From: Pseudomonadota bacterium
GTDB taxonomy: Bacteria; Pseudomonadota; Gammaproteobacteria; Steroidobacterales; Steroidobacteraceae
DNA: 44,817 nucleotides
Direction of reading: 5' to 3'
Assembly: GCA_018241505.1 (NCBI GenBank)
Contig: JAFEDS010000003.1
Location: 46,650-91,466, forward strand
Part shown: positions 16,423 to 31,413 of the stretch, piece by piece
How the letters are laid out: each line of letters starts with the position of its first letter
How positions within the stretch are numbered: the first letter of the stretch is position 1
The notes under the pieces: generated by a model
Databases searched by the model: none
What the model saw: only the letters and a program-made list of their open reading frames with translations
Told to the model about the DNA's origin: nothing
Position numbers and translations under genes: made by a program

Positions 16423-16440
16423 GGCGCGCATTATGGCGAA

Positions 16441-16923: not shown

Positions 16924-17914
16924 TGGGACGCGTCATCAATTCGCGAACCGCATCCCGTGCGGGCACGCCCTCGTAAAGCACCCGGTAGACACCCTCGCAC
17001 AGCGGCATTTCGACCTTCATCCGCTCAGCCACGGTGTGCGTCGCTTTCGCCGCGGTATATCCCTCTACGACCTGTCCTATTTCCGACAGAGCCTGCTGGG
17101 CTGTGCGCCCCGCCGCCAGTGCGAGGCCAAACCGGCGATTGCGTGATTGATCATCGGTGCAGGTCAGCACGAGATCTCCCAGTCCCGCCAGTCCCATGAA
17201 GGTTTCACGGTTGGCTCCCGCGGCAACACCGAGCCGCATCATTTCCACGAGGCCACGTGTGATCAACGCAACGCGCGTGTTGGCCCCGAAGCCCAGGCCA
17301 TCGGACATTCCTGCTCCAACCGCAAGCACATTCTTGACCGCACCTCCCACTTCGACACCCGTGATATCAGTTGAGGTGTAAGCGCGAAAGTTGGCCGATG
17401 ACAAACCGTAGGCCAACGCCTTCGCAAACTCCGCATCCGGCGACGCAACAGTCATGGCAGTTGGTAATCCAGCACCTACTTCCCGTGCAAATGTAGGCCC
17501 CGACAGAACCGCAACGGCGCGGTTCGACCCGAGCACTTCCCGCGCGACTTGATGCGGCAGCAAACCGGTATCGAGCTCAAATCCCTTGGTAGCCCAGGCG
17601 AGACGAGTGTCCGCTGTCAGATGAGGCTGGATCTGCTGCAACATCCCGCGAAATCCGTGGCTGGGTACAGCGATGAGAGCATCGCGGGCACCGGCGAGGG
17701 CCGCCGCGAGGTCGGGCTCGACGACGAGCGAAGCGGGAAATTCAGCGGATGTCAGGTAGCGTGTGTTGCGACGGCTGGCCGCCATCGCAAGCAACGCGTC
17801 GCGGTCGCGGCCCCAGAATTTGGTCGGGTGGCCACTTCGCGCGAATTGGATTGCAAGCGCGGTACCCCATGAACCTGCGCCGAGCACCGCGATCGGTGCC
17901 AGATGCTCGTTCAT
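16904..17914 (-). CDS. gpsA: Glycerol-3-phosphate dehydrogenase [NAD(P)+]
   Basis: It reduces dihydroxyacetone phosphate to sn-glycerol-3-phosphate, the backbone for phospholipids. The N-terminal Rossmann motif IAVLGAGSWGTALA (about residues 8-21) and WGRDRDALLAM follow the start. KGFELDTGLLPHQV, SGPTFAREV, and the catalytic-domain VGGAVKNVLAVGAGM and GLAGLGDLVLTCTDDQSRN are all conserved. The ATG at 17914 gives 336 residues, the normal length. It lies 17 bases downstream of secB and is the last gene of the rhodanese-glutaredoxin-secB-gpsA group, an order also seen in other Gammaproteobacteria. Confidence 0.97.
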   Translation of the reverse strand: MNEHLAPIAVLGAGSWGTALAIQFARSGHPTKFWGRDRDALLAMAASRRNTRYLTSAEFPASLVVEPDLAAALAGARDALIAVPSHGFRGMLQQIQPHLTADTRLAWATKGFELDTGLLPHQVAREVLGSNRAVAVLSGPTFAREVGAGLPTAMTVASPDAEFAKALAYGLSSANFRAYTSTDITGVEVGGAVKNVLAVGAGMSDGLGFGANTRVALITRGLVEMMRLGVAAGANRETFMGLAGLGDLVLTCTDDQSRNRRFGLALAAGRTAQQALSEIGQVVEGYTAAKATHTVAERMKVEMPLCEGVYRVLYEGVPARDAVRELMTRPIKSELE

Positions 17915-17931
17915 GGGGTCCACTGCGGCCG

Positions 17932-18414
17932 TCAGTTGGCAGCAGACTGCGGCTGTTGGGAAGCCGACTGTGCGTACAGCGCGTCGAAGTTCACCGGAGG
18001 CAGGAGGAACTGCGGGAAGCCACCCTGGGTTACGAGGTGTGACACCGCAGCGCGCGCGTAGGGAAACAACACGCTCGGGCAAACGCTGCTGATGGCTCGT
18101 TTCACATCGTCCTCAGCGAGGTTCCGCATCAGGAAGATGCCTGCCTGCTTGACCTCGACGAGGAAAATCGTCGCGTCGTTCTGCTTTGCGGCGACTGTCA
18201 CTGTGAGAACAATCTCGCGCAGTTCCGGCGACAACGCGTTTGCACTGGTGTGCAGGTCGAGATTGATCTGCGGATTCCAGTTGCCGTCCACACGAGGACC
18301 GTTGGGTGCCTCGTAGGAACAATCCTTCAGATACACGTTCTGCAGGGCGAGGGTTGGGCCCGTGTCCACCTGCGCATTGGGATCCGGCACACCGCCGGCC
18401 ATGTTACTGCTCAT
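17932..18414 (-). CDS. secB: Protein-export chaperone SecB
   Basis: A tetrameric cytosolic chaperone that holds preproteins unfolded and hands them to SecA. The 160-residue form starting at 18414 has GGAG nine bases upstream. Conserved stretches include LALQNVYLKDCSYEAPNGP, NPQINLDLHTSANAL, VEVKQAGIF and CPSVLFPYARAAVSHLVTQGGFPQFLLPPVNFDALY. The C-terminal tail is rich in Gln, Ala and Ser and unstructured, as usual. Only one base separates it from the glutaredoxin gene upstream. Confidence 0.97.
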   Translation of the reverse strand: MSSNMAGGVPDPNAQVDTGPTLALQNVYLKDCSYEAPNGPRVDGNWNPQINLDLHTSANALSPELREIVLTVTVAAKQNDATIFLVEVKQAGIFLMRNLAEDDVKRAISSVCPSVLFPYARAAVSHLVTQGGFPQFLLPPVNFDALYAQSASQQPQSAAN

Positions 18415-18415
18415 A

Positions 18416-18682
18416 TCACGCTCCAGAATTGAGTAATGGGTCCAGGCCGCCATCTGCATCAAGAGCGTACAGGTCGTCGCATCCGCCGACATGAGTATCG
18501 CCAATGAAGATCTGCGGTACGGAGCGACGGCCGCTTCGTGCCATCATCTCTGCGCGCGCCTCGGGGCGCTCATCAATGTTGATTGTCTCGAACTCGACGC
18601 CTTTGTGTTCGAGCAATCCACGGGCCCGTGCGCAATACGGGCACCAGTCTGTCAAATACATCACCACTTTCGCCTGTGCCAT
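18416..18682 (-). CDS. grxC: Glutaredoxin (GrxC type)
   Basis: A small glutathione-dependent thiol reductase of 88 residues. The dithiol active site CPYC (about residues 14-17, in LTDWCPYCARA), the cis-Pro stretch RRSVPQIFIGDTHVGGCDDLYALD and the glutathione-binding Gly-Gly-Cys-Asp-Asp are all present, so it should be active. The Met at 18682 starts the first beta strand; longer in-frame starts would read into the rhodanese gene. It is 13 bases downstream of the rhodanese-like gene and abuts secB. Confidence 0.96.
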   Translation of the reverse strand: MAQAKVVMYLTDWCPYCARARGLLEHKGVEFETINIDERPEARAEMMARSGRRSVPQIFIGDTHVGGCDDLYALDADGGLDPLLNSGA

Positions 18683-18695
18683 GCGCGTCGCAGGC

Positions 18696-19118
18696 TCAAG
18701 CCTTCGACAGCGGCAGGTTCTCGGCGCGCCAGGCGCTGATGCCACCACGCAGATTGAACGCCTTCGTGAACCCCTGTGCGGTGAGCTGCCGTACGGCCGA
18801 GGCTCCCAGCGAGCCCGTGTCGTCATACACCACCAGCACTTTTTCCTTCTGCTTTTTTAAGGTGTCGCCCGCCTTCAGAATCTGGTCTCCGGACATCTGC
18901 TTCGCACCGGCCACGTGACCGCCCGCAAAGGCGTCGCCGGGGCGCAGGTCGATAACCAGGGCGCCCTGATTCATCAGGCGCACGAGGTCCTGGGGCGACA
19001 CGGCCGACTGGTTCTCGTTGCGGGACCGCAGCTCGTAGACAATGACCAATACAGCCGCAACGGCCAGGCCACCGGCATACCACGGGTGATGGGAGATGTA
19101 TTCGAGAAGTCGGTCCAT
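18696..19118 (-). CDS. Membrane-anchored rhodanese-like protein lacking the active-site cysteine
   Basis: A 140-residue YibN-type protein with one N-terminal membrane helix (about residues 13-31) followed by a rhodanese domain (VSPQDLVRLMNQGALVIDLRPGDAFAGGHVAGAKQM). In active members the loop after the central strand reads VVYC..G, with the sulfur-carrying cysteine. Here it reads VVYDDTGSLGAS, with Asp at the Cys position, and the coding bases (GAC) are clear. Sulfurtransferase activity is therefore unlikely; a binding or scaffold role is possible. It is the first gene of the glutaredoxin-secB-gpsA group and is divergent from envC. Confidence 0.88.
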   Translation of the reverse strand: MDRLLEYISHHPWYAGGLAVAAVLVIVYELRSRNENQSAVSPQDLVRLMNQGALVIDLRPGDAFAGGHVAGAKQMSGDQILKAGDTLKKQKEKVLVVYDDTGSLGASAVRQLTAQGFTKAFNLRGGISAWRAENLPLSKA

Positions 19119-19136
19119 GCGTGCCGGTCACAAAAA

Positions 19137-19156
19137 GGGCGCGCATTATAGCGCCC
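19137..19156 (-). promoter_or_regulatory. Hairpin with -10 box between the rhodanese operon and envC
   Basis: A perfect 6-bp stem GGGCGC/GCGCCC (19137-19142 with 19151-19156) has the loop GCATTATA. On the minus strand the loop holds TATAAT (19145-19150), a perfect -10 box 27 bases before the rhodanese ATG. On that strand the stem is followed by five T residues, so it also looks like a short intrinsic terminator. No good -35 is visible. It may be a promoter whose symmetry is incidental. Confidence 0.4.
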
Positions 19157-19158
19157 CT

Positions 19159-20379
19159 ATGATTGGGGTTCGCAGTGAGTTGGGTGGGGGCCGGACCATC
19201 GGAGCGTTTCGCCGCTGGGCAAGGTTCCTGGTGCTGGCTTCGGCCGCCCTCGTGCTTTCCGGCCTGGGTGGGCGGACGGCTCCCGCGGCGACAACGGGGG
19301 CTGACGCCCGCAAAACCGAGGCTGAGCTGCAATCTGTCAAATCCGAGATTGAGCGGGTGACCCGGCAAGTAGGGGAGGAGCAGGTCCAGAAAGACAAGCT
19401 TTCCAAGGAGTTGCGTAGTGCTGAGCTGTCGGTCGGGAAAGCACGGGAGGGCCTGGATGACGTCCGTCGTGGACGTGCGGAGCGGGCGTCCAAACGCGCT
19501 CAGCTAGCGTCCCAAAAGCGCGCTCGTGAAGCCGATCTGACCCAGAACCGGGGCGCACTGGCGGGCCAGTTACGTGCGGCCTATCTGATTGGTCGCGAAG
19601 AGCCGCTGAAACTCCTTCTCAATCAGAAGGACCCTGAGCGGGCCGGCCGCATGTTCGTCTACTACAGCTATTTCGGACGGGCGCGCGCGGATCAGATCCA
19701 AGACATTGAGAATGACGTGCAGGCCATCGCTGACCTCGACGAGAAGCTGCAGGCGGAGGATGCCAAGCTCGCCGAGTTGGAGAAGCAGCAGCGAGCCAAT
19801 CTCATGGAGTTGGAACTGGCGCGTGAGAAACGCTCGGGGGTGCTCGCGAGCCTGACAGCCGAATCCAACTCTCATGCACAAAGCCTGGAGCGCCTCAAGA
19901 CTCAGCAAAATGGCTTGGAAAAGCTGCTGCGCGAGCTGCGCCGGGCGATGGAAAAGTTTCCCATCGACAACAACGACGCGTTCGCTCGCCTGCGCGGGAA
20001 GCTCACGTGGCCCGTGGGCGGCAAGCTCATTGCGCGATTTGGCGAGCCGCGCGCCGGTGGCGTCAAGTGGGATGGCGTGTTGGTTGCGACCGAGCGCGGC
20101 GCGCCCGTTCGTGCTGTCTATGGCGGTCGGGTCATCTATGCGGATTGGCTGCCCGGACTCGGGCTGCTCACCATCATTGATCACGGCGAGGGCTACATGA
20201 GCCTCTACGGTCACAACGAGCGTCTTTACAAGACGGTGGGTGAGCGCGTGAACGCCGGAGACACCGTGGGTTCAGCGGGCGACAGCGGTGGCAGCAACCG
20301 GCCGGAGCTGTACTTCGAAATCCGAAAAGCAGGTAAGGCGGTGGACCCGCGTCCGTGGTTTCGCTCCGGCGAACCGTGA
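19159..20379 (+). CDS. envC: EnvC-like murein hydrolase activator
   Basis: A periplasmic activator of cell-division amidases, linked to FtsEX in studied bacteria. An N-terminal signal-anchor region (about residues 13-43) is followed by long coiled coils (about 50-265, e.g. TEAELQSVKSEIERVTRQV and DAKLAELEKQQRANLMELE). A LytM/M23-fold domain occupies about 290-406. The LytM zinc ligands are incomplete: the usual HxxxD position reads VKWDGVLV, while YGHN is kept. This is the hallmark of non-catalytic EnvC rather than an active peptidase. The Met at 19159 is the nearest plausible start. A carboxy-terminal protease gene lies two genes downstream, as often seen. Confidence 0.92.
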   Translation: MIGVRSELGGGRTIGAFRRWARFLVLASAALVLSGLGGRTAPAATTGADARKTEAELQSVKSEIERVTRQVGEEQVQKDKLSKELRSAELSVGKAREGLDDVRRGRAERASKRAQLASQKRAREADLTQNRGALAGQLRAAYLIGREEPLKLLLNQKDPERAGRMFVYYSYFGRARADQIQDIENDVQAIADLDEKLQAEDAKLAELEKQQRANLMELELAREKRSGVLASLTAESNSHAQSLERLKTQQNGLEKLLRELRRAMEKFPIDNNDAFARLRGKLTWPVGGKLIARFGEPRAGGVKWDGVLVATERGAPVRAVYGGRVIYADWLPGLGLLTIIDHGEGYMSLYGHNERLYKTVGERVNAGDTVGSAGDSGGSNRPELYFEIRKAGKAVDPRPWFRSGEP

Positions 20380-20494
20380 TCTCGGTTCATGCTGCTTTGC
20401 AGCAGTCTCTTGAATCGCCAACTCGAGCAACGCTGGGCGGGATGGTCGTCTGAGAAGGTAACGATATCCCCAAAAGTCCAGGGTTGGCGCGGAT

Positions 20495-22756
20495 GTGACT
20501 GCTGCCGTGAACAAGAGCGAACTGACACCTGATCCGTGGGGCTCGTTTGAGCCCTACGTTCAGCTCGTGCGTTCCTTGTTGCCGCGCGCCACCGGTGTCT
20601 CCTTGTTCGACGCGAGCGGCGCCCTGCGCTGGTCGAGTGAGACCACCACCGGACCCGATTTCTACACCCTCATTGAGGAGGCGCTCTCGACCGCGGGGGC
20701 GCGCCCGCAGGGGCCGGGTCTCGTGCGGATGTTGGACGGTAGCCTGCCCGTGTACCTGTTCTGGATACGCGACGAGACGGAAGAGCTCATCGGGATCGTT
20801 GCCGTCATGTGCCGGCAGAATGGCGGCGGGGAAGCCGAAGCACAGGAGTTCTCGTTCAAACATGCGCTGCTGCGCCCCGTGTTGGAGTGCCTTCGCCGCG
20901 ACCTGCTGTCGCGTGCCGCGATCGAACAATTGAGCCGCACTGTTACATCCCGCGACCGTGACCTGGAGTTGCTGTTGGCGGATGGTTCCGCGGATCGCCC
21001 CACGGGCGATGGCGCTGATGAGCTGAAGGGAATTCTCAAGCAGGCGATCGAGCACGTGGATTGCACGACGGCTGCGTTGATTGTGCCGGACAAGAGCATT
21101 GCGATGTTGCGTTCAGCCACGAATCGTCCGGCGGACATGCAACTGGTGGCCCGCGCTCACAGGCAATTGTTGGCAATGGCTCAGGCGCGCCGCGAGCCCG
21201 TCATCATCAACAAGCTGGCGCCCAACAGTACGACGGGAATTCTGCCCTACAAGATCCTCTCCTGCGCGCTGCGCTCGGGGGCCGGCAAGGCGATGGGTGT
21301 GCTCGCACTTTTCAGGGAGGATGCGGGGCAGCCCTTTGGTGATCGCGAGGCACGCCTGACGGAGATTCTGGCGCGCAAGGCGCTCAGCCTCATTGAAAGC
21401 AGCCACGACGCGCTCAGCGGTCTATACACCCGCCCCGCATTCGAACAACGTGTGCGGGCTGTCGTCGCGGATGCGAAAAGCTCGAAGCATTGGACCGCGT
21501 TGTATATTGACGGCGACCAGATCCATGTCATCAACGACAGCTTCGGCATGCATGTGGGCGATTCGGTGTTGGGTCAGCTCGGTGAGCTGATTCGGCGCCG
21601 CTTGCCTCCCGGGGCCTTCGCGTCCCGCATTTCCGGCGACCGCTTCGCCGTCATGCTGCCCACTCAAATCGATGATGCCGCGAAGTTCGCCGAGTCGCTG
21701 CGCGAAGGCGTGGAGCAGTTGGGAACGACACAAGGCGAATCGCGTCTGCATGTTTCCGTCAGCATCGGTGTTGCATCGTTGGATACGGCCGCGGGTGAGC
21801 TGATGCATTCGCTGGCGGCCGCGGAAACGGCCTGCAAGGCCGCCAAGGATCGCGGCCGCAATCGCGTCGAGGTTTACAAGAGCAACGACGTCAGCCTGGT
21901 CAGACGCTTCGCGGATATCAACATTGCCGGCCAGTTGCGTGCCGCCATTGATGCCGGCCGGTTCCAGCTTTATTCGCAACTCATTGTGCCGTTTGCCTGC
22001 GCCGAAAGCCCACGGACGCATTTCGAGCTGCTGCTGCGCATGCTCGATGAAGATGGCCACACCATCGGTCCGGATCGCTTTCTATCGGCGGCCAACCGCT
22101 ATCAGCTCATGCCGGAAATCGACCGTTGGGTCATCAACCAGGCAATTGAGCTGCTCGAGCCGCAGGCCGAGCTTCTCGCCGGCCGCACGGTCGCGTTTGC
22201 CATCAACTTCTCGGGTCAGTCGCTGAACGACGAAAGTTTTGTCGACTTTCTGCTGGAGCGCATTCGCTCGAGCGGCATCGATCCGGCGGTGTTCACGTTT
22301 GAAATCACCGAGAACGCGACGATTGCCAATATTGCGCGTGCGGAATCGCTCATCCGCCGCCTGCGCGACCTGGGTTGCAGTGTGGCCCTGGATGATTTCG
22401 GCACAGGGTTGTCGTCGCTCGCGTACTTGAGACAGTTGCCGGTCACGATGTTGAAGATTGACGGCAGTTTTGTGCGCGACATTCTCAAGGATCCTCGAGC
22501 CGAATCCATGGTGCGTGCGATTGCTCAACTCGCGCGCAGCATGTCATTGACGACGGTTGCCGAGTATGTGGAAACGGACGAAATCCGTACGCGTGTTGCG
22601 ACACTGGGTGTCGACTACGGACAAGGCTTTGCTATTGGCCGGCCTGCGCCTCTGCAGGAATTGTTATCGGAGCTGCCGTTGTACGCTGCCGCAGATTCGA
22701 CACCGACCGTAATCAGCGACATCGCGCTCGATCACCTCATTGAAATTGTGCACTAA
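20495..22756 (+). CDS. Degenerate-GGDEF/EAL cyclic-di-GMP phosphodiesterase-like protein
   Basis: A 753-residue cytoplasmic signalling protein without membrane segments. An N-terminal region of unknown fold (1-180) is followed by a GAF-like domain (about 185-320). A GGDEF domain follows with the signature replaced by SGDRF (380-384), so diguanylate cyclase activity is unlikely. The C-terminal EAL domain (about 485-745) keeps the phosphodiesterase residues: ELLLR (511-515), the Asn of INFSGQ, EITEN, DDFGTG (633-638), KIDGSFVRD, AEYVET and YGQGF. It should therefore hydrolyse c-di-GMP, perhaps under control of the GAF and GGDEF parts. The start is GTG at 20495, with a poor ribosome site; a GTG at 20507 is an alternative. 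A small CTGCT/AGCAG stem lies in the gap after envC. Confidence 0.92.
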   Translation: MTAAVNKSELTPDPWGSFEPYVQLVRSLLPRATGVSLFDASGALRWSSETTTGPDFYTLIEEALSTAGARPQGPGLVRMLDGSLPVYLFWIRDETEELIGIVAVMCRQNGGGEAEAQEFSFKHALLRPVLECLRRDLLSRAAIEQLSRTVTSRDRDLELLLADGSADRPTGDGADELKGILKQAIEHVDCTTAALIVPDKSIAMLRSATNRPADMQLVARAHRQLLAMAQARREPVIINKLAPNSTTGILPYKILSCALRSGAGKAMGVLALFREDAGQPFGDREARLTEILARKALSLIESSHDALSGLYTRPAFEQRVRAVVADAKSSKHWTALYIDGDQIHVINDSFGMHVGDSVLGQLGELIRRRLPPGAFASRISGDRFAVMLPTQIDDAAKFAESLREGVEQLGTTQGESRLHVSVSIGVASLDTAAGELMHSLAAAETACKAAKDRGRNRVEVYKSNDVSLVRRFADINIAGQLRAAIDAGRFQLYSQLIVPFACAESPRTHFELLLRMLDEDGHTIGPDRFLSAANRYQLMPEIDRWVINQAIELLEPQAELLAGRTVAFAINFSGQSLNDESFVDFLLERIRSSGIDPAVFTFEITENATIANIARAESLIRRLRDLGCSVALDDFGTGLSSLAYLRQLPVTMLKIDGSFVRDILKDPRAESMVRAIAQLARSMSLTTVAEYVETDEIRTRVATLGVDYGQGFAIGRPAPLQELLSELPLYAAADSTPTVISDIALDHLIEIVH

Positions 22757-22870
22757 TCAGCAACTCCCGAATTCAGATTGGTGCGTCTTCTGTAAACGGC
22801 CGGTTCGGCATTGACCCATGTGGGACGCCTGTAGTATCCGTGATGCATCCAAACCGGGGGGTTTGAGGAA

Positions 22871-24178
22871 ATGATGTCGACGCGATCGCGAACGCTGATC
22901 GGGATCGTCGCGGGTGCCGTCTTTGGCTTCTCCGCGTCGCTGACGAGTGGCGTAATTGCGGAACATTCGGGCGCTAACGCCAATGCGGCCATGCAGGCTG
23001 GGACCAACCCAGCGGCGTTGCCATGGGAAGAAGCGCGGCTGTTTGCCGAAGTGTATGAACGGATCAAGCGCGAGTATGTCGACGACGTCGACGATCACGC
23101 GCTCATGGATAAAGCGATTCGCGGCATGGTCGCGGCGCTCGATCCTCATTCCGCTTTCCTCGACACCGATGAGTTCGAAGAGATCCGGTTGAGCACCATG
23201 GGCTCCTACCCCGGCGTCGGTATCGAGGTCGTGGCCGAAGATTCAGCCGTGAAGATCCTCCGTCCCATTGAGGGTTCGCCCGCCGATCAGGCCGGCCTGT
23301 TGCCTGGGGACCAGATCGTCAAGATAGATGACACGGATATCGGCGCGGATCTCGCCGGTGCGATTGCTCACATGCGCGGCTCGTCAGGCAGCGTCGTGAA
23401 ACTCACAGTTTTGCGTCCGACAACGGGGCAGACACTCGACTTCTCTCTGCGTCGCGCCAAGGTCGAAGTGCACAGTGTTGCCCAGCAGAGCCTGGAGCCT
23501 GGCTACGGCTATCTGCGGATTACAGGTTTCAGCGAGACTACTGCGGACGATGTGAATCATGCGATAGCCCGGCTGAAACGAGACAATCCGGCCGGTATCA
23601 AGGGGCTGGTGCTCGACCTGCGAAACAATCCCGGTGGAGTGCTGGAGGCTGGTGTCGCAGTGGCCGATGCATTCCTCAACGAGGGCGTGATCGTTACAGC
23701 GGACGGCCGGACGCCCGATGCTCGCTTCCGCATGGACGCGACACCCGGTGACGCTATCGACGGCGCGCCGCTGGTGGTGCTCGTGAACGGCGGGTCTGCG
23801 TCCGCTTCCGAGATCGTGGCGGGCGCGCTGAAGGACCATGGCCGTGCTGAGCTGATTGGGCACAAGACCTACGGCAAGGGCTCGGTCCAGACGGTGATGC
23901 CGCTGTCCCATGGTGGCGCCGTGAAACTGACGACCTCCCGGTACTTCACCCCCTCGGGTGCGTCTATTCACGGTAAAGGGATCGTTCCCGATATCGTGGC
24001 CCAGGGAGCCGAAGATCCGCCTGCCGAGCTCCTGGCGACCAAGGGGGCTGCTCCACTGGCTTCCCGCGACAAGGAAGTCCGTTTGGCACTCGATGCCCTC
24101 AAAGATGAGGTCAAGGTGAAGGTTGCCAAGGCGCCGATCAGCTCCGCTGCCCTGGTCAAGGCTGCGTTCGTACCTTAA
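22871..24178 (+). CDS. Carboxy-terminal processing protease, S41 family
   Basis: A periplasmic, membrane-anchored serine protease of the CtpA type. An N-terminal hydrophobic segment (about residues 9-30) precedes the cap region EEARLFAEVYERIKREYVDDVDDHALMDKAIRGMV. The PDZ domain (about 105-190) includes the carboxylate loop YPGVGIEV, and the catalytic core holds LRNNPGGVLEAGV. The nucleophile is Ser311 (NGGSASASE) and the general base is Lys336 (KTYGKGSVQT), the standard 25-residue spacing. The ATG has GAGG a few bases upstream. It follows the EAL gene by 114 bases and forms the usual envC-ctp neighbourhood. Confidence 0.95.
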   Translation: MMSTRSRTLIGIVAGAVFGFSASLTSGVIAEHSGANANAAMQAGTNPAALPWEEARLFAEVYERIKREYVDDVDDHALMDKAIRGMVAALDPHSAFLDTDEFEEIRLSTMGSYPGVGIEVVAEDSAVKILRPIEGSPADQAGLLPGDQIVKIDDTDIGADLAGAIAHMRGSSGSVVKLTVLRPTTGQTLDFSLRRAKVEVHSVAQQSLEPGYGYLRITGFSETTADDVNHAIARLKRDNPAGIKGLVLDLRNNPGGVLEAGVAVADAFLNEGVIVTADGRTPDARFRMDATPGDAIDGAPLVVLVNGGSASASEIVAGALKDHGRAELIGHKTYGKGSVQTVMPLSHGGAVKLTTSRYFTPSGASIHGKGIVPDIVAQGAEDPPAELLATKGAAPLASRDKEVRLALDALKDEVKVKVAKAPISSAALVKAAFVP

Positions 24179-24194
24179 GAAACATTAATTCCCT

Positions 24195-24220
24195 GAGCCC
24201 GTCCCGGCCGGGGCGGGCTC
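24195..24220 (+). terminator. Strong GC stem-loop after the protease gene
   Basis: An 11-bp stem GAGCCCGTCCC / GGGGCGGGCTC (one G-T pair) with loop GGCC starts 16 bases after the stop codon. No T-run follows, so it is not a full intrinsic terminator. It may stabilise the 3' end or assist Rho. Confidence 0.45.
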
Positions 24221-24264
24221 GTATATGCTCCGCGGGCCCTTGGCGATAGACAGGACCCACCCCC

Positions 24265-24909
24265 GTGATTTCGTGGTTTATTGACCTTGTTCTGCACCTC
24301 GACAAGCACCTTGTCGAGCTTCTGGCGACGTATCACGTGTGGATCTACCCGATCCTGTTCGCGGTGATTTTCTGCGAGACCGGGTTGGTCGTGACCCCCT
24401 TCCTTCCCGGCGACTCTCTTCTGTTTGCCGTCGGTGCTCTCGCCGCTGTCGATACGAGCGGCACACTCAACGCAGCGTTACTCTTCGTATTGCTGGCGGT
24501 CGCCGCCGTTTTGGGCAACACGTTGAACTACTCCATTGGGCGGGCCATCGGGCCTCCCGCTTTCAGCGGACGCTACCGGCTGCTCAAAGTTGAATACCTC
24601 CATCGCACGGAGGATTTCTTCAAGCAACACGGTGCCATGGCGGTTGCGCTGTCACGGTTCATGCCGATCATCCGGACCTTTGCGCCTTTCGTCGCGGGTG
24701 TTGGTCGCATGCCCTACCGGTCCTTTCTCGGTTGGAACCTGATGGGGGGAACGTTGTGGGTTGCGTTGTTTATCTGGGGGGGTTACCTGTTTGGCAACAT
24801 CCCGGTGGTGAAACAGAACTTCGGGATTGTCACGCTGCTGATCATCTTTGTGTCGTTGATTCCGCTGGTGGTGACGTTCTTCAAATCACGCACGTCCTCA
24901 CCCGCTTAA
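24265..24909 (+). CDS. DedA-family membrane protein
   Basis: A 214-residue inner-membrane protein of the DedA/VTT family; members act as lipid scramblases or flippases and recycle undecaprenyl phosphate. The family signatures are clear: ETGLVVTPFLPGDSLLFAVGAL (about 38-58) with the re-entrant loop, GRAIGPPAFSGRYRLLKVEYLHRTEDFFKQHG, and LSRFMPIIRTFAPFVAGVGRMPYRSFLGWN with its conserved arginine. The C-terminal WVALFIWGGYLFG and two helices follow. The start is GTG at 24265. Its 3' end overlaps the convergent MAPEG gene by 12 bases. Confidence 0.94.
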   Translation: MISWFIDLVLHLDKHLVELLATYHVWIYPILFAVIFCETGLVVTPFLPGDSLLFAVGALAAVDTSGTLNAALLFVLLAVAAVLGNTLNYSIGRAIGPPAFSGRYRLLKVEYLHRTEDFFKQHGAMAVALSRFMPIIRTFAPFVAGVGRMPYRSFLGWNLMGGTLWVALFIWGGYLFGNIPVVKQNFGIVTLLIIFVSLIPLVVTFFKSRTSSPA

Positions 24910-25287
24910 GGCTGCTCGCACCGCGCCGTAGAGGGTTCCGGCCAACAGGGCTGCGTTTGGTGCAACCGTCAGAATGAATCCCAACTCGCGTGACTTGGGA
25001 TCCTTCACATACGTGAAGAAATAGATGACCCGGCCGACGAGGAAGACCGCGCCCAGTGCGGCTCCAATGTACGGACTCATGTAGTGCGCAAAGAGCAGAA
25101 TCGACGGGATGAACACGACGAGCTGTTCCAACGTGTTGACCTGTACGCGCATGTACCGTTCGAATATTTCGTTCCCCGACACGGCCGGCGCCGCCACTTT
25201 GTAGCGAGTGCGTGCGCCCGCAACCGCCAGGCCGAACCAGAGATACTCGACGAGCGCGAGGCCGATGACGATGTGTACGTAGGGCAT
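24898..25287 (-). CDS. MAPEG-family membrane protein
   Basis: A 129-residue protein with four membrane helices, resembling the MAPEG family (membrane-associated proteins in eicosanoid and glutathione metabolism). Diagnostic features are the short first helix, NEIFERYMRVQVNTLEQLVVFIPSILLFA (about 38-66) containing the family's E-R-x-x-R-x-x-N-x-x-E pattern, and VGRVIYFFTYVKDPKSRELGFILT. Bacterial members often have glutathione transferase or peroxidase activity, but the substrate here is unknown. The gene stands alone, convergent with DedA and divergent from the SRPBCC gene. Confidence 0.85.
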   Translation of the reverse strand: MPYVHIVIGLALVEYLWFGLAVAGARTRYKVAAPAVSGNEIFERYMRVQVNTLEQLVVFIPSILLFAHYMSPYIGAALGAVFLVGRVIYFFTYVKDPKSRELGFILTVAPNAALLAGTLYGAVRAALSG

Positions 25288-25394
25288 GATTACCTGCTGC
25301 GTGATTGAACGGCTAACCTGAGCCGTCCCGGTGAACGGCTCCGGTCAAGTAGCATAGTGGAGAACTGCGCTGACCCCGATGGCAGAATAGATTC

Positions 25395-25847
25395 ATGAGG
25401 GAAAGAGCCCGGGGTTACGCCCATCGCGTGGATATCGTTGCTGACGCCGACCAGGTATGGCGAGCTCTGACGGAGCCGGAATACCTGGCAAGATGGTGCT
25501 CGCCCGGCGCACAGATCCGGGCGCAGAAAGGCGGCTTGTTTCGTGCCAGCGTAGATCGAGTGACCGAATTGGAGGCGCACATAGACGTGTTCGAGCCCGC
25601 GCGCCGGTTGCGCCTGATCTACCTCCCCACGCAATCGCTACCCCCCACCGACGACCCCATTGTCGACGACTTCATCATTGACGAGAACACCAAGGAACCT
25701 GGAACGATTCTCAGACTGCTGGGGTCGGGCTTTCCGGCCACCGAAGAGTGGAACCGGCAATATCAACGGTTGCGACTGGGTTGGCAGCAGGCCATGACCC
25801 GCCTGAAGGTGTTCACCGAAAAACAGCTCCGGAGCAAGACTTCATGA
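25395..25847 (+). CDS. SRPBCC/AHSA1-like domain protein
   Basis: A 150-residue cytosolic protein of the START/Bet v1-like fold, which forms a hydrophobic ligand pocket. The opening AHRVDIVADADQVWRALTEPEYLARWCSPGAQ, with the Trp-Cys pair after the LT-x-PE-x-L-x-x-W helix, is the AHSA1/YndB hallmark. The C-terminal helix WNRQYQRLRLGWQQAMTRLKVF closes the fold. The function is unknown. Its stop overlaps the start of the next gene by four bases (ATGA), so the two are probably cotranscribed. Confidence 0.8.
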   Translation: MRERARGYAHRVDIVADADQVWRALTEPEYLARWCSPGAQIRAQKGGLFRASVDRVTELEAHIDVFEPARRLRLIYLPTQSLPPTDDPIVDDFIIDENTKEPGTILRLLGSGFPATEEWNRQYQRLRLGWQQAMTRLKVFTEKQLRSKTS

Positions 25848-26221
25848 CCGGCTTTATTCTGCGTGCCTGCATCACCGCGCTCGGCCTTTGGTTGGCAACC
25901 CGTGTGGTGTCGGGCATCCGGATCGACGACCCGACCACCATCGTGCTCGCGGGCCTGTTGCTGGGGGTCGTCAACGCTATCGTCCGGCCGGTCGCTATCC
26001 TCCTGACCCTGCCGTTGACGATCCTGTCCCTTGGGTTTTTCCTGCTGGTGGTCAATACCGCGATGGTCGGCCTGGTGGCCGCGATGCTGCCCGGATTCCA
26101 CATATTTGGCGGGTTCTGGTCGGCGTTTGGAACCGCGTTCGTAGTATGGGTCACCGGCTGGGTGGGGTCGGCGCTGATCGGGCCGCGGGGGAAGATCGAC
26201 GTGTTTGTGAGGCGTTTGTAG
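25844..26221 (+). CDS. Small four-helix membrane protein, phage holin 4 superfamily type
   Basis: A 125-residue hydrophobic protein with about four membrane helices. It belongs to the widespread bacterial family annotated as phage holin superfamily IV, recognisable by LATRVVSGIRIDDPTTIVLAGLLLGVVNAIVRP and LPLTILSLGFFLLVVNTAMVGLVA. Most members are chromosomal and have no phage nearby; I see no lysis genes here. The ATG at 25844 overlaps the SRPBCC stop, which argues against the longer frame starting at 25748. The stop lies inside a 16-bp palindrome. Confidence 0.8.
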   Translation: MTGFILRACITALGLWLATRVVSGIRIDDPTTIVLAGLLLGVVNAIVRPVAILLTLPLTILSLGFFLLVVNTAMVGLVAAMLPGFHIFGGFWSAFGTAFVVWVTGWVGSALIGPRGKIDVFVRRL

Positions 26222-26233
26222 AGGCGCCTCTAC
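26218..26233. repeat. Perfect 16-bp palindrome over a stop codon
   Basis: GTAGAGGCGCCTCTAC is perfectly self-complementary and contains the holin-like gene's TAG stop. It could form a short hairpin (loop GCGC) at the transcript end, or bind a dimeric protein. No T-run follows. Confidence 0.4.
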
Positions 26234-26729
26234 CCGTCGGCGAAAACCCATTTTGGGGTGACAGAATGCTCAAAAAGCATAGCCCTATGCTCTATAGTCA
26301 TTACCGAAAAAGTCATAACTTTTAACGTGAGTTACGTGCTCACGGGGATCTGTGTCGGTAACATGAGTTCCAGGATCAGGCCTATCGATGCCGCGTATAA
26401 AAAACGCGGCGCAGCCAGGGAAAATTCTGCAGATGGATTCGCAGCCACATACATCGCGTAGGCTGAAAAGGAGCTCGTACAGGGGATGTTGGCTTCTGGC
26501 GCTCGCGGTGGATGACACGTCGGTGTTCACGGTCGTGGTTGCCACGTGACACCTGCATTGCCTCCAGCATGTTGCGACGCACTCCGGGGACCTCGTTCTG
26601 TAGTTCTTGCGCCCTCCAGCGGCTCCCGTCGCGCATCATCCTCGGACCGCGAAATAAACCAATTCCAAGATGACGGATTTCTGACGCTCGTCCGTCACTA
26701 CACTAGACTTGCCTATTACTGTGCGCAGC
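26222..26729. other. Gene-poor leader region of the TonB receptor
   Basis: About 500 bases with no gene I can support. The first 150 bases are AT-richer than the surroundings and hold a 14-bp palindrome GCATAG-CC-CTATGC (26277-26290). Short frames exist on both strands but lack ribosome sites, conserved motifs or recognisable family sequence. The last 60 bases contain an imperfect operator-like dyad (see 26671-26697). No FecI or FecR gene is present, although the receptor downstream has an STN domain. Confidence 0.5.
26671..26697. promoter_or_regulatory. Inverted repeat upstream of the TonB receptor
   Basis: TGACGGA (26671-26677) and TCCGTCA (26691-26697) form 7-bp arms 13 bases apart, 33 bases before the receptor's ATG. 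A weak -10-like TACACT (26699-26704) follows. The position suggests an operator or part of a regulated promoter. I cannot match it to a known sigma factor or repressor. Confidence 0.4.
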
Positions 26730-29717
26730 ATGGATGAACACAAGGACGGGTCTCGTCGAGTAACACCATGCCGCGCCGCAGGGCGGCGGTGCGCGATACT
26801 CATCGCGTTCCTGGCTCTCCATACAGCCACCGTGGATGCGGCCGCACCGCGCAAACATTTCGACCTCGAGGCTGGCGACGCCTCCGTCATGCTGAACGAG
26901 TTCAGTCGCCAGTCCGATCTCCAGGTCCTGTTCGACTTCAACATCCTCAAGGGAATGAAGACCCGTGCGGTGACGGGCGATCTCGACGCCTCCACGGCCC
27001 TGAAGACCATGCTGAAGGGCACCGACCTCGTATTCGATTTCGTCAACGACCACACGCTGGCCGTGACACCCAAGAAACCTTCCGTGTTCCAGCGGCTGTG
27101 GCATCGTCTGAAGACCCGTACGGCGCATACGTCTGCGCAAGATGACGATGACCTCGAACAGGTGTTGATCTCCGACAAGGGGCCCGACAATGGGACGATG
27201 CCATTGCTCGGCGCGCCCACCATCCACTATGGCCGGATCGACATCGAGCGCTCGGGGTTGGCTACCACGGAGGATTTTTTGCGGACCATGCCGCAGGTGT
27301 TCGGTGGGGGGCCGACGGAGGACACGGTGTTGGGTCGCGAGGCGGCCACCAACTCCGCGCACGGCGCAGGCATCAACATTCGTGGCCTCGACGCCGGTGC
27401 GACCCTGGTATTGATTGACGGCAAGCGAATTGCTCCCAGCGGCACGGCCGGTGCTTTCGATGACATTTCCAACATACCCTTGAGCATCGTCGATCACATT
27501 GACATTCTCCCCGACGGCGCGTCGGCAAAATATGGCGCTGATGCTATCGGGGGTGTGGTCAATTTCGTGACACGCAAAGGCTTCTCGGGTTCCTCGACTC
27601 AAGCCCGCGGCGGCAGTGTAACCAACGGAGCGATGGGAGAGCGGCAATTCAGCCAGCTCTGGGGTCAGCCGCGGGATTCCGGATCAGATTTGCTGTCGTT
27701 TGAATACTTTCAGCGCGACCCCTTGCTGGCACGGGATCGCGCACAGTATTCGAACGATCTAACTGCCTTCGGAGGTAGCAACTTTGAAGGTTTGTTTGGA
27801 CCCGGGCCGGGCACGATATTCGCCGGAAACCAGATGTTCGCGGTGCCGAAAAACCTCAATGGAGCTGCGCTGACGGCAGCTGACCTCATTCCGGGGACCA
27901 GCAATTTCTACGACAACTACAAGGGCACGTACGTTACTCCCGGCGAAGAACGCTGGAGTGTCTTCTCAAAGGAAAGCCAGCGACTGATGGGTGACGTGCA
28001 GTTGCACTTTGAGGGACTGTTCACCCGGCGTAAAGCAACAGACATTGCTGCGGCTTCTCTACCCCTCGCATTTTCCGTCCCGACCTCGAATCCGTACTAC
28101 ATCAATCCGACCGGGGGTACCGGCGACATCAACGTTATTGCCGGAACATCCGCATACTTCGGGCCGCTCGCCGCCGACAATCGAATTGATACCGGCAATT
28201 TTTCTCTCGGCCTGTCGCTATCTCCATTTGAACGATGGACTGCGGATGTAACCGGGGGCTACACATTTGAAAGGCAGCACGCCACAACCAGCGGCTCCTA
28301 TGACCCGACCGCACTGTACGCGGCGCTCAATGACACCAACCCCGCAACGGCATTCAATCCGTTCGGCGATGCAACCAGCAATAATCCTGCGACTCTGGAC
28401 TCGATTTCCGGTGTATCTCGACAATCGTCTGTATCGACTCTGCGCTCCATAGGCCTCACGACTGGTGGCCCTGTGTTCGCCATGCCCGGTGGTGACCTCG
28501 GTATGAGTATTGGTGCTGAATACCGCGTCCAGCACCTCGACACCATACTCTCCTTGCCGCACTCGCCAGCTGTCGACTCCGGTGATCTGAGCCGGAGCAT
28601 CAAAGCAGCGTTCGTCGAAGTTGAAATTCCAATTGTCGGCGAATCCAACCGCCTCGAGCTCGTCAAGCGCCTGAAGCTCTCGCTGGGAGCAAGACACGAA
28701 AACTTCAGCGACGTGGGTGGCGCCTCCATTCCTAAAGTCGGATTACTGTGGTCGATAAACAGGGATTGGAGCTTTCGCAGTAGCTGGACTAAATCGTTCA
28801 AACCACCCAATCTGACCGACGTTACGCTGGCAGGCAGTCAAAGCATCATAACCAGATTCAATGATGCGAGTTCACCGACCGGCTTCACGCCGGTTCTTTC
28901 GTTATTTGGGACCAACCCCAGCCTGCAGCCGGAAACAGCCCGTACTTGGACTTTCGGCACCGACTTTACCTTGTCTTCGGTCCCTGGCCTCGCCGTGTCG
29001 ATTACCTATTTCAACATCGCTTACGCGAACCGGATCACTGACGCGCAGGTGACAGCCGACGCGCTGTCGCAACCGAGCCTCGCGTGGCTCTTCACCAGAA
29101 ACGCAACTCCAGCCGATCTCGCCTCAGCCTGTCAGCACTCCGTGTACCAGCTGGGGACATCGCAGGACTGTCTGAATACGGGTGCGACGATCATCATGGA
29201 CGATCGCCTGCGCAACATTGCCTTGCTCAAAACGAACGGGCTGGATCTCATCGGCAAGTACTCCACCGAGAATCGCGGCGGCCACTTCGATTTCGGATTC
29301 AACGGGACTTACCTGCTGCGCTACTCGCAGTCCAATACGCCCACGAGCGCTTTGGACAACATAGTGAGCACGCAAAATAACCCAGTCAATTTCCGGGCAC
29401 GGGGCTCGGCAGCATGGGAGCGCCGCGGTTTCGGAGTCGCCGGATTCGTCAATTTCGAGAATAGCTACCGGGACACGGTGAGCGTGCCCAGCCGCGGCGT
29501 GTCGCCCTGGACCACCATCGATCTACAACTGAGCTATCAGACTTCCGCGTACGTGCCTGGATGGCTGGGAAACACGCAGGTGGCATTGAACGTGCAGAAC
29601 CTGTTCAACGTCAACCCTCCTTTTCTCAACAACAGTGCCGTAGGTATCGGCTACGACCAGGAAAACGCCGATCTATACGGTCGTCTGGTCAGCTTCGAAG
29701 TTCGCAAGCGCTGGTAG
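26730..29717 (+). CDS. TonB-dependent receptor with N-terminal STN signalling domain
   Basis: A 995-residue outer-membrane transporter driven by TonB. A signal peptide (about residues 20-38) is followed by an STN domain (about 42-108: HFDLEAGDASVMLNEFSRQSDLQVLF, then TRAVTGDLDASTALKTMLKGTDLVFD), the periplasmic module that in studied receptors talks to FecR. The plug (about 160-285) shows SAHGAGINIRGLDAGATLVLIDGKRIAPSG and DGASAKYGADAIGGVVNFVTRK, then a 22-strand barrel ending in the aromatic-terminated SFEVRKRW. A TTG at 26709 is also in frame; the ATG at 26730 is preferred, though no clear ribosome site precedes it. The lasso-peptide precursor follows 161 bases downstream. Related receptors accompany lasso clusters in Proteobacteria, so the ligand could be that peptide or its metal or siderophore complex (inference). 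Confidence 0.95.
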   Translation: MDEHKDGSRRVTPCRAAGRRCAILIAFLALHTATVDAAAPRKHFDLEAGDASVMLNEFSRQSDLQVLFDFNILKGMKTRAVTGDLDASTALKTMLKGTDLVFDFVNDHTLAVTPKKPSVFQRLWHRLKTRTAHTSAQDDDDLEQVLISDKGPDNGTMPLLGAPTIHYGRIDIERSGLATTEDFLRTMPQVFGGGPTEDTVLGREAATNSAHGAGINIRGLDAGATLVLIDGKRIAPSGTAGAFDDISNIPLSIVDHIDILPDGASAKYGADAIGGVVNFVTRKGFSGSSTQARGGSVTNGAMGERQFSQLWGQPRDSGSDLLSFEYFQRDPLLARDRAQYSNDLTAFGGSNFEGLFGPGPGTIFAGNQMFAVPKNLNGAALTAADLIPGTSNFYDNYKGTYVTPGEERWSVFSKESQRLMGDVQLHFEGLFTRRKATDIAAASLPLAFSVPTSNPYYINPTGGTGDINVIAGTSAYFGPLAADNRIDTGNFSLGLSLSPFERWTADVTGGYTFERQHATTSGSYDPTALYAALNDTNPATAFNPFGDATSNNPATLDSISGVSRQSSVSTLRSIGLTTGGPVFAMPGGDLGMSIGAEYRVQHLDTILSLPHSPAVDSGDLSRSIKAAFVEVEIPIVGESNRLELVKRLKLSLGARHENFSDVGGASIPKVGLLWSINRDWSFRSSWTKSFKPPNLTDVTLAGSQSIITRFNDASSPTGFTPVLSLFGTNPSLQPETARTWTFGTDFTLSSVPGLAVSITYFNIAYANRITDAQVTADALSQPSLAWLFTRNATPADLASACQHSVYQLGTSQDCLNTGATIIMDDRLRNIALLKTNGLDLIGKYSTENRGGHFDFGFNGTYLLRYSQSNTPTSALDNIVSTQNNPVNFRARGSAAWERRGFGVAGFVNFENSYRDTVSVPSRGVSPWTTIDLQLSYQTSAYVPGWLGNTQVALNVQNLFNVNPPFLNNSAVGIGYDQENADLYGRLVSFEVRKRW

Positions 29718-29848
29718 TTTCCGTTGCTGGCAACCAGGATCCAAGTACCAGAATACCTCGAGTCAATTTAATCCCTTTCAATTCCATTGAGGGGGAGATC
29801 GTACGCCCTCCAGGCGTGCCAACTATAAAAACGAGCGAAGGAGCGCCA

Positions 29849-29866
29849 ATGAGTATCAATGTCTAA
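29849..29866 (+). CDS. Five-codon micro-ORF with a strong ribosome site
   Basis: ATG-AGT-ATC-AAT-GTC-TAA encodes MSINV. GAAGGAG lies five bases upstream (29837-29843). The stop is 12 bases before the lasso precursor start and abuts its ribosome site. It might couple translation, act as a leader, or be the remnant start of a lost tandem precursor. It could also be chance. Confidence 0.3.
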   Translation: MSINV

Positions 29867-29878
29867 TAGGAGAATGTC

Positions 29879-30007
29879 ATGAAGCTGTTGTTCATTGCTC
29901 ACTCGATTCTGATCGACTGTGGGAAGGCGTCGAAGCGGACAAAGGGAACGTTTGCCGCACCCTTGACGGAGGCCGGACAGCCGCCGTTCAATAAATATAA
30001 CCAGTGA
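29879..30007 (+). CDS. Lasso-peptide precursor (A protein), apparently orphan
   Basis: A 42-residue peptide with AGGAGA five bases before the ATG. Residues 1-22 form a leader ending in LIDCGKASKRTK; residues 23-42 form the core GTFAAPLTE-AGQPPFNKYNQ. Lasso precursors of Proteobacteria have Thr as the penultimate leader residue, Gly as core residue 1, and Asp/Glu at core 7-9. All three hold here (Thr21, Gly23, Glu31 = core 9), which predicts a nine-residue macrolactam ring threaded by an 11-residue tail. From memory, the leader end resembles that of astexin-1 (LGKASAETR). Phe37 and Tyr40 are possible plug residues. My hand calculation gives about 2132.03 Da for the cyclised core. No B, C or isopeptidase gene is visible in the window. 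It may be read from the TonB receptor promoter or from a weak TATAAA at 29824-29829. Confidence 0.8.
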   Translation: MKLLFIAHSILIDCGKASKRTKGTFAAPLTEAGQPPFNKYNQ

Positions 30008-30231
30008 TTAACGCTTTTCCCTGGTGAGCAAGGAACGCTCGACTGCCCGTGGTGCGCTCATCATGAGAAGGGAAGTGATGACACACTGCGGGCAGATTGT
30101 CGAACGTTCCAGCGGGCCGTCAGCGGCATCTTCAAGCCGCTGTCAGTGCTACAGCGCGTTTCATTCTACGCAATGTTGCTACTCGATGACTTACGTCCAA
30201 AAGCGACTGCACCAGGTTGGCGCACATGGCA
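30008..30231 (+). other. Open stretch after the lasso precursor, in its reading frame
   Basis: After the precursor's TGA, the same frame stays open for about 75 codons to a TGA near 30236, passing through CPWCAHHEKG and a hydrophobic SFYAMLLLDDLRPK. It has no ATG near its beginning and no ribosome site, and I recognise no family. A GTG at 30024 opens a different frame without better support. It could be non-coding DNA or the tail of a decayed gene, perhaps part of a lost lasso cluster. Confidence 0.35.
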
Positions 30232-31413
30232 TCATTGAAGAGTTGGCATTATCCTTTTCATGAATCCATCGAATAGAGGCACGGTAAATGCCGTGTCGCC
30301 ATGCGATGGGCTGTAGATCATTCCTTTCGCGATCAGCGCGTTTCGAGTTGGCGCGACATTCGTGACCTTCCGTTTGAGCAGCTCCGCCACGTCCCCGGAT
30401 CGATGTGGGCCTGGTCCCAACTCGGCCATCGCCCTCATATATCGCTTTTCCAGAGGCGTCAGGCGGTCGAAGCGGACGCGAAAGAAGCTGGCATCGAGTT
30501 CGGCGAGCGCCTGTTCGGTGGCCACTTCGGCATCTGCTGGTGTAATCGGCGATTTTTTGGCCACGTTCCAACAGTATTTTCCCCACTCCTGCAGGAAGTA
30601 TGGGTAACAGTGAGTTTGGTCCAAAATTACGCCGATCGCCGCGGGTCTGAATTTGACGCTCTCCTTCTCCGCGGGCACGCGCAGAGCGGTGATTGCCGCT
30701 TCCTTGTCGAGTTGGTCGATGGAGACGAATTCAAAAAGTCGCTCTGCATAGGATTTGGCCCGGCCGGTCTGCCCCAGTAACTGTGGTAGTCCGGCGGCGA
30801 CCATCGTCACAGGAAGTTGAGCTTGGTTGGTCGCGTGCAAGGCCGTGATGAGCGCAGCGAGTTGCTCCTCAGGAACGTATTGCAGCTCGTCTATAAAGAG
30901 CACGATGGCTGTTTTCTTTTCTGAGGCAGCCTTTCCGACGGCAATCAATAATTCGCTCAAATCGCTATTCAGATCACCGCTATCGGCAAGACCCTTCTCC
31001 GGATCGACATCGAGCGCCACCTCGATATCGCCGTGTTTGACTCTTAGGGCGGATACGAAACCAGCGAGCGCACGAAGAGCCTTGCGCACTCCAGCGGTAG
31101 TCGCTTGTATTCGATCCAACCGAATCAGTGCTGCGCGAAGTGCTGGCGCCAGGAGGGCGGGCAGTGAGCGATCTTCCGGTGCCTCCATATTCACCGCCAC
31201 AATATCCCGGGCCTCTGCGTCTATGCGGATCCGATTCAACAGCACAGTCTTTCCTACGCCACGCAGTCCATAGAAAATGAGGCTTCGTGCGCTCCTTTTG
31301 GCACGAATGCGATCCAGGGCGATTGCCGCTCGCTCGATGATGCCATCGCGGCCAGCGAGTTCAGGTGGCGGGGTTCCGGCACCTGGGGCGTATGGATTTC
31401 GGCGCGGGTCCAT
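30232..31413 (-). CDS. AAA-type ATPase with C-terminal winged-helix region
   Basis: A 393-residue ATP-binding protein of the AAA_16/archaeal-ATPase type. Walker A is GLRGVGKT (about residues 49-56), Walker B is IVLFIDELQYV (about 169-179), and the sensor region VTMVAAGLPQL follows. A helical lid and a C-terminal winged-helix-like segment (about 320-390: LTPLEKRYMRAMAELG, SGDVAELLKRK, TRNALIAKGMIY) complete it. Such stand-alone ATPases are scattered among bacteria, often in variable regions, and their targets are mostly unknown. The gene is somewhat less GC-rich than the core genes, lacks a good ribosome site, opposes the lasso gene, and is flanked by gene-poor DNA. This fits acquisition by transfer (inference). 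Confidence 0.85.
   Translation of the reverse strand: MDPRRNPYAPGAGTPPPELAGRDGIIERAAIALDRIRAKRSARSLIFYGLRGVGKTVLLNRIRIDAEARDIVAVNMEAPEDRSLPALLAPALRAALIRLDRIQATTAGVRKALRALAGFVSALRVKHGDIEVALDVDPEKGLADSGDLNSDLSELLIAVGKAASEKKTAIVLFIDELQYVPEEQLAALITALHATNQAQLPVTMVAAGLPQLLGQTGRAKSYAERLFEFVSIDQLDKEAAITALRVPAEKESVKFRPAAIGVILDQTHCYPYFLQEWGKYCWNVAKKSPITPADAEVATEQALAELDASFFRVRFDRLTPLEKRYMRAMAELGPGPHRSGDVAELLKRKVTNVAPTRNALIAKGMIYSPSHGDTAFTVPLFDGFMKRIMPTLQ

Follow-up and report, generated by a model that had tools for sequence, protein, structure and literature searches.

The window analysed here is a stretch of 44,817 nucleotides on contig C33 (G000:C33:46650-91466; 91,466 bases in the whole contig) of a genome, G000, that is assembled as 7.88 Mb in 46 contigs and rated 5.67% contaminated; the genomes compared with it are drafts, one of them titled a MAG. 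The window contains a gene for a TonB-dependent receptor, which ends 161 nt upstream of a short open reading frame (ORF) with the translation MKLLFIAHSILIDCGKASKRTKGTFAAPLTEAGQPPFNKYNQ*, 42 residues in length (Table 1). The contig also carries gyrB (window positions 2-931, locus L028) with dnaA, dnaN and recF just ahead of it by eye, as in an origin-type region.

An initial annotation had read this ORF as a lasso-peptide precursor beside a TonB receptor, citing a ribosome site, a leader ending GKAS-x-x-T-K, Gly at core position 1, Glu at core position 9 and a core of 20 residues. All of these marks were found: the leader ends GKAS-KR-T-K, with Thr at position -2 (...K-R-T-K before the core Gly), and the core of 20 residues has Gly and Glu at positions 1 and 9; lasso precursors carry a small residue, mostly Gly, at the first of these and Asp or Glu somewhere within core 7-9. 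The mass of the core minus water was computed as 2132.033, in agreement with the earlier hand-calculated value of 2132.03. The [YW]xxP motif, which in leaders is the consensus bound by most discrete lasso RREs (PMC13381572), is absent from the precursor. This absence is not decisive, because the candidate partner B protein described below is a fused RRE-peptidase.

A scan of 29650-30250 gave a terminator-like site on the plus strand (30138-30156), 131 nt past the precursor gene, and two promoter-like sites, both on the minus strand; the promoter and terminator counts in this interval are near those of shuffled sequence. The precursor peptide has no family in NCBIfam, its best match among solved structures (E=1) is not meaningful, and it has no match in a plasmid collection from which records near its own genome may be missing.

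Table 1. Features of the receptor-precursor cassette and of related lasso loci in G000. Positions without a prefix are those of the window; the others are those of the locus named.
Feature	Position	Strand	Remarks
TonB-dependent receptor, 1002 aa	26709..29717	+	STN, plug and barrel domains; exact start codon uncertain
Conserved stretch between receptor and precursor	29773..29829	+	Two-species alignment with G005; begins with hairpin-like CCCTTTCAATTCCATTGAGGGG
Ribosome site AGGAG	29868..29872	+	6 nt before ATG
Lasso-type precursor gene	29879..30007	+	42 codons and stop; matches family profile; 63% identical to G005 counterpart in the same place
Leader, 22 residues	29879..29944	+	[DE]CG-x5-T-x motif
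Core GTFAAPLTEAGQPPFNKYNQ	29945..30004	+	Gly1, Glu9; 9-residue ring predicted; Pro-Pro four residues after ring Glu
C1a C, cyclase	L022:4643-6532	-	SGGLDS motif present
C1a B, fused RRE-peptidase	L022:6548-7282	-	Motif Cys...AHCW...ND present
Precursor-like ORF by C1b B	L022:9615-9719	+	Arg after T-x
Precursor-like ORF by C26 B	L024:8173-8418	+	Asp after T-x
Precursor-like ORF by C46 B	L025:15678-15797	-	Lys after T-x

The precursor family and its conservation

Contig C14 of G005, a second species, is syntenic with the window along most of 15590-30098 and once more at HemD, and its receptor and precursor are 65% and 63% identical to those of C33. The lack of any homologous precursor in relatives had been named beforehand as grounds for doubting the ORF; the G005 counterpart, in place, removes them. 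About 0.6 kb beyond this counterpart, in the same slot, lies a second precursor with the same DCG leader type, and the G005 contig has no B match. The hairpin-like block that separates receptor and precursor (29773-29829) is kept in G005 and, by eye, is absent before the related precursors on contigs C46 and C1 of G000.

Over 40 codons, the C33 and G005 precursors differ at 9, 10 and 19 first, second and third codon positions. By our own Nei-Gojobori count, pN and pS are 0.162 and 0.704 for the leader, 0.365 and 0.387 for the core (where counts are small), and 0.23 and 0.71 for the receptor. Small as these numbers are, a leader under constraint and a core free to vary are what one would expect of a precursor family. 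The near equality of pN and pS in the core fits diversification and also relaxed constraint.

The neighbouring MAPEG gene was found in 54 of the 58 genus genomes in which it was sought, and its surroundings were compared in seven genomes, two of whose stretches reach contig ends and three of which have a broken gene order. No receptor match occurs in any of these seven stretches. In G258 the flanking genes EAL, S41, DedA, MAPEG, AHSA1 and holin on one side and HemD, POT and TatC on the other have different genes between them in place of the cassette, and in G271 the holin gene is followed by another gene and by POT and TatC, HemD not being found there. Since these flanks exist without the cassette, receptor and precursor are best regarded as an extra in the slot.

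A peptide search of 60 genomes, G000 included, gave weaker relatives of the precursor on contigs C46 and C1 of G000 and on contigs C14 (two, the 63% counterpart being the better) and C239 (two) of G005. The precursors at C1 and C239, together with one found later in G275, lie inside clusters with lasso B genes. In an alignment of eight precursors that includes the one from C33, the leader Cys, the leader Gly, Thr(-2), Gly1, the ring Glu and two prolines are invariant. The residue before the leader Cys is Asp in seven sequences and Glu in that of G275; the ring Glu is at position 9 in seven cores and at position 8 in one, and the Pro-Pro pair stands four residues past it in all eight.

The family is rare. 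Matches at E<=0.001 occur in 3 of 217 genomes of the taxonomic family, and across the order 9 of 396 genomes have a match at E<=0.01, strong in three of them. The six weak order-wide matches have E values of 7e-4 to 5e-3, two contain internal stops, and the G295 match, close to a B gene, is a precursor whose leader is of another type. When named genomes were scanned, from a collection in which records near the own genome may be missing, one of 11 matched stretches was confirmed (L056), and it is the same contig as G005:C14 (Gammaproteobacteria MAG RYN_606).

Could the ORF be a product of chance, lying downstream of an ordinary TonB receptor gene? The motif that first drew attention to it is weak alone, since a loose pattern of the cited marks matched 56 times in 150 simulated windows, and the peptide's lack of an NCBIfam family would agree with such an origin. 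A stricter pattern, written after the ORF was known, matched none of the 150 simulated windows and once in the real one. A profile was also built from the four precursors that adjoin lasso B genes. Across the whole of G000 it gave the C33 precursor E=1.3e-8 and the C46 precursor E=7.9e-9, the next best match being at 0.54. The profile test is not fully blind, because its four rows were first found through likeness to the C33 ORF or its kin; their position beside B genes is an outside check. Both the profile match and the occupation of the same place in a second species contradict a chance ORF, which we consider extremely improbable. Positions 29879-30007 thus very probably form a real lasso-peptide precursor gene, with its isopeptide bond and threading as predictions.

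Receptors and lasso enzymes elsewhere in the genome

The neighbouring receptor belongs to a clade of lasso-type receptors. With at most three candidates scored per genome, 17 of its 33 best relatives (itself included) have a B match no more than 15 kb away on their contig, as against one of the next 30. A receptor tree (38 rows, a subset of the scored loci plus cluster receptors; quick search, no bootstrap) places the window receptor in a clade of six (SH-aLRT 99) with those of G005 C14, C46 (near), C1a and G005 C249 and a partial sequence from G275 C215, whose row fills 28% of the columns. Within this clade the C33, C14 and C46 receptors group together (support 99). Five of the six are less than 3 kb from a DCG or ECG precursor on the same contig, and the sixth, at C249, would go with the C239 precursors through a contig split.

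Precursor-like ORFs were found at 4 of 30 receptor loci (L084, which is the window, L085, which is G005 C14, L086 and L091), in flanks of up to 1.5 kb and with several loci cut by contig ends. Other lasso-type receptors, among them L098, L101 and L103, lie away from any B match with no precursor-like ORF within 1.5 kb or less; these may be further split loci or effects of contig ends. No FecI/FecR-like pair was found among the 28 window ORFs, a subset of all, that were scanned with Pfam. A FecR gene and a sigma gene are present at G005:C239, with similar genes at C1 and C46 by eye only.

No cyclase, leader peptidase or isopeptidase had been visible in the window, and the same holds for all 91,466 bases of C33, on which there is no B2 match (E<=0.001), no C match and no isopeptidase-like match at E<=1e-10. 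B and C genes beside the precursor are customary for lasso peptides but do not define them; here neither the 76 kb to one side of the precursor nor the 14.8 kb to the other, where the contig ends, has a B or C match. The G000 genome, when searched whole as had been proposed, proved to encode five B2 matches above the cut-off, each with an adjoining C gene: two on contig C1 (C1a and C1b) and one each on C21, C26 and C46. Their loci (L022, L023, L024, L025) differ in leader type, all within one genome. The C1a B and C genes look intact, judging from their motifs, and a DCG precursor lies directly upstream of the C1a B gene. The ORFs beside the other four B genes are not of the DCG type (C21, LVEMGNVSVETK; C26, VVKLGKVTQETK; C46, IVELGNVLVDTK; C1b, LTDLGLATRVTQ), so that, of the five loci, C1a alone combines a B gene with an adjoining precursor of the orphan's leader type.

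The C46 locus has another DCG precursor at its far end; this one follows a receptor of the same clade by 168 nt, and about 9-11 kb separate it from the C and B genes of C46. The C1a precursor is about 104 kb from the nearest end of contig C1, so that, given the 14.8 kb on the C33 side, its distance from the C33 precursor would be no less than about 118 kb with the two contigs placed end to end. The single B match in G005, which is the counterpart of C1a, stands where contig C239 ends, next to a pair of DCG precursors; the count of one may be incomplete, because the B gene is cut by the contig end and the genome is 91% complete. By eye, G005 C249 (L114) carries genes for sigma, a FecR-like protein and a receptor as well as a truncated C gene, arranged as on C1. 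It and G005 C239 (L027) appear to be the two parts of a single lasso cluster with the gene order of G000:C1.

None of the three genomes G000, G005 and G275 has an isopeptidase over the curated cut-off, the relative at the C46 locus scoring 154 against a cut-off of 400 bits. Two unlinked isopeptidase-like genes, at G000:C44 and G005:C61, were set aside, since ORF listing and a precursor pattern gave no lasso gene in the surrounding 19 kb.

The PqqD-like RRE of the C1a B protein (residues 14-76) was compared with that of 33 other B proteins. It is 70% identical to that of G005 C239 and 50% to that of G275 C215, the only other B proteins found beside DCG or ECG precursors; the next best is 38%. 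From the side of the G275 C215 RRE, the values are 50% for C1a, 43% for G005 and 37% for the next. For the other four B proteins of G000, identity to C1a was 24-34% in residues 8-48, a stretch that was self-chosen, which is why the comparison was repeated on 14-76. In the peptidase domain, G005 C239 is again the closest to C1a (73% over its 91 columns), and its B protein is likely the C1a orthologue. G275 C215 (49%) is there no closer to C1a than are G275 C12 (49%) and L080 (49%), with C21 at 47%. Because its peptidase identity is so unremarkable, it is the leader-binding part, not the whole protein, that tracks leader type in G275 C215.

A tree of 34 B proteins does not unite the three DCG B proteins in a well-supported clade (support 18) and is too weak to place G275 C215, and so the RRE comparison was used instead. 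L051, L054, L055, L056 and L069 were excluded from the tree as duplicates or as not being B loci, L063, L065 and L067 gave no B match, and further B places without a locus were also left out. RRE identity thus appears to follow leader type, with docking as a prediction.

Proposed maturation in trans and its alternatives

The cassette is probably a satellite, comprising a receptor and a working lasso precursor that would be matured in trans by the C1a enzymes. Matching enzymes are present at other places in the genome, and it is probably such a distant, shared pair that completes the peptide. The DCG leader of the C33 precursor would dock on the N-terminal RRE of the fused C1a B protein, which would then cut after T-K, and the C1a cyclase would join Gly1 to Glu9, giving a product of about 2132.03 Da with a 9-residue ring threaded by its tail. 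The receptor beside the precursor might import or sense the finished peptide and, by way of its STN domain, could pass a signal to a FecR/sigma pair located at another place. In this way three receptor-precursor units, at C1a, at the far end of C46 and at C33, would share a single enzyme pair. The initial annotation had offered maturation by enzymes encoded elsewhere as one of three options; with five B/C loci in the genome, one of which, C1a, shares the leader type and has the RRE that matches best, it is now well supported, short of proof. Nothing calls for the unfamiliar maturation route that was another.

More tentatively, this arrangement may be a hub with satellites, in which a single B/C pair acts for several unlinked cassettes of receptor and precursor, every one of them combining a diverged core with its own TonB transducer receptor. 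One cell would then make and recognise a private set of lasso peptides in which the ring varies and the E-x3-PP frame is fixed. We regard this wider scheme as possible and somewhat short of an even chance.

The C1a pair is not the only one available. Another of the G000 pairs (C46, C1b, C21 or C26), or several promiscuous pairs together, could mature the precursor, since RREs can be promiscuous (some lasso RREs bind non-cognate leaders, and FusB1 bound such leaders; PMC13381572) and a DCG cassette stands on the contig of the C46 pair at a distance of about 9-11 kb. Yet next to the B gene of each of these four loci is a precursor-like ORF whose leader is different, their RREs have the low identity to C1a given above (24-34%), and G005 keeps the satellite with no B match beyond the C1a counterpart, albeit in an incomplete assembly. 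Maturation by one or more of these pairs is accordingly unlikely. A further alternative, that the peptide is unmatured and slowly decaying, the cassette being what stayed behind after loss or movement of B and C genes, draws on the distance to any B or C match, on a core pN about equal to pS and on the slot of G258, which holds other genes. It was also the remaining one of the earlier options. However, the ORF is open and the leader constrained in both G000 and G005, with receptors that share only 65% identity, the ribosome site and the upstream block are kept, all eight cores keep Gly1, the ring Glu and the Pro-Pro spacing, and a second DCG precursor occupies the same slot in G005. Retention of the cassette in a second species, together with the constraint on its leader, makes a leftover of this kind less likely, and we judge it distinctly improbable.

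It is still harder to see the product as a short linear peptide that borrows a lasso leader and acts as an inducer or decoy for the STN receptor or as a competitor for the C1a RRE. The gene does adjoin a transducer-type receptor, with B and C absent nearby, but Gly1 and the ring Glu would be needless in a linear or decoy role and are kept, and the cluster-bound members at C1a and G275 C215 share the same layout next to B and C. Such a function is therefore very doubtful, and maturation in trans by C1a is the reading preferred here.

Relation to known systems

In-trans RiPPs such as the prochlorosins, in which one enzyme set serves unlinked precursor genes with a common leader, resemble the proposed arrangement, although their chemistry is that of lanthipeptides, unlike that predicted for the C33 peptide, and they are not known to have a paired receptor for each precursor. 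The open-licence literature, which leaves out most subscription papers, yielded no account of a lasso precursor encoded away from its B and C genes. Mining for lasso peptides usually begins at B and C genes and then checks for adjoining precursors, so unlinked precursors would be missed. The C33 case offers a concrete route to them, by matching of leader to RRE and by receptor clade. If it is true that each precursor pairs with its own receptor, the role of receptor-linked lasso peptides would become directly testable, and uptake, signalling or a siderophore-like function could be assayed pair by pair.

A lasso pathway that is partly unlinked genetically is known for citrulassin, where the tailoring enzyme lies outside the cluster, whereas at C33 it is the precursor itself that is apart from B and C (PMC12971885). 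Lasso clusters with several precursors sharing a leader are also known (PMC13381572). The leader end of the C33 precursor is similar to those of the proteobacterial isopeptidase-type clusters (astexin, sphingopyxin, sphingocin, rubrinodin), the sphingocin leader ending ...LIDLGSVTEETK before Gly (PMC11006600). TonB-dependent receptors and sigma/anti-sigma pairs accompany clusters of this type (PMC9266682), and clusters with a TonB receptor, sigma/anti-sigma genes and isopeptidase have been described (PMC9266682; PMC11006600). In such clusters precursor, B, C and receptor are found together, whereas C33 has receptor and precursor only, with no isopeptidase over the cut-off. The C33 family differs from them also in the invariant Cys before the leader Gly (8/8).

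Metanodin, a gammaproteobacterial lasso peptide of an uncultivated soil bacterium, known from a soil metagenome and assigned to a relative of the Steroidobacteraceae, likewise has Thr two residues before its core (PMC12670498). Its precursor, B, C and isopeptidase genes are in one cluster, and its core begins with Asn1 in place of the Gly1 of C33 (PMC12670498). Of the precursor-like ORFs by B genes in G000, those of C1b, C26 and C46 have Arg, Asp and Lys, respectively, in place of Gly after T-x (Table 1). Taken with Asn1 of metanodin, these ORFs suggest that the first ring residue is relaxed in these bacteria.
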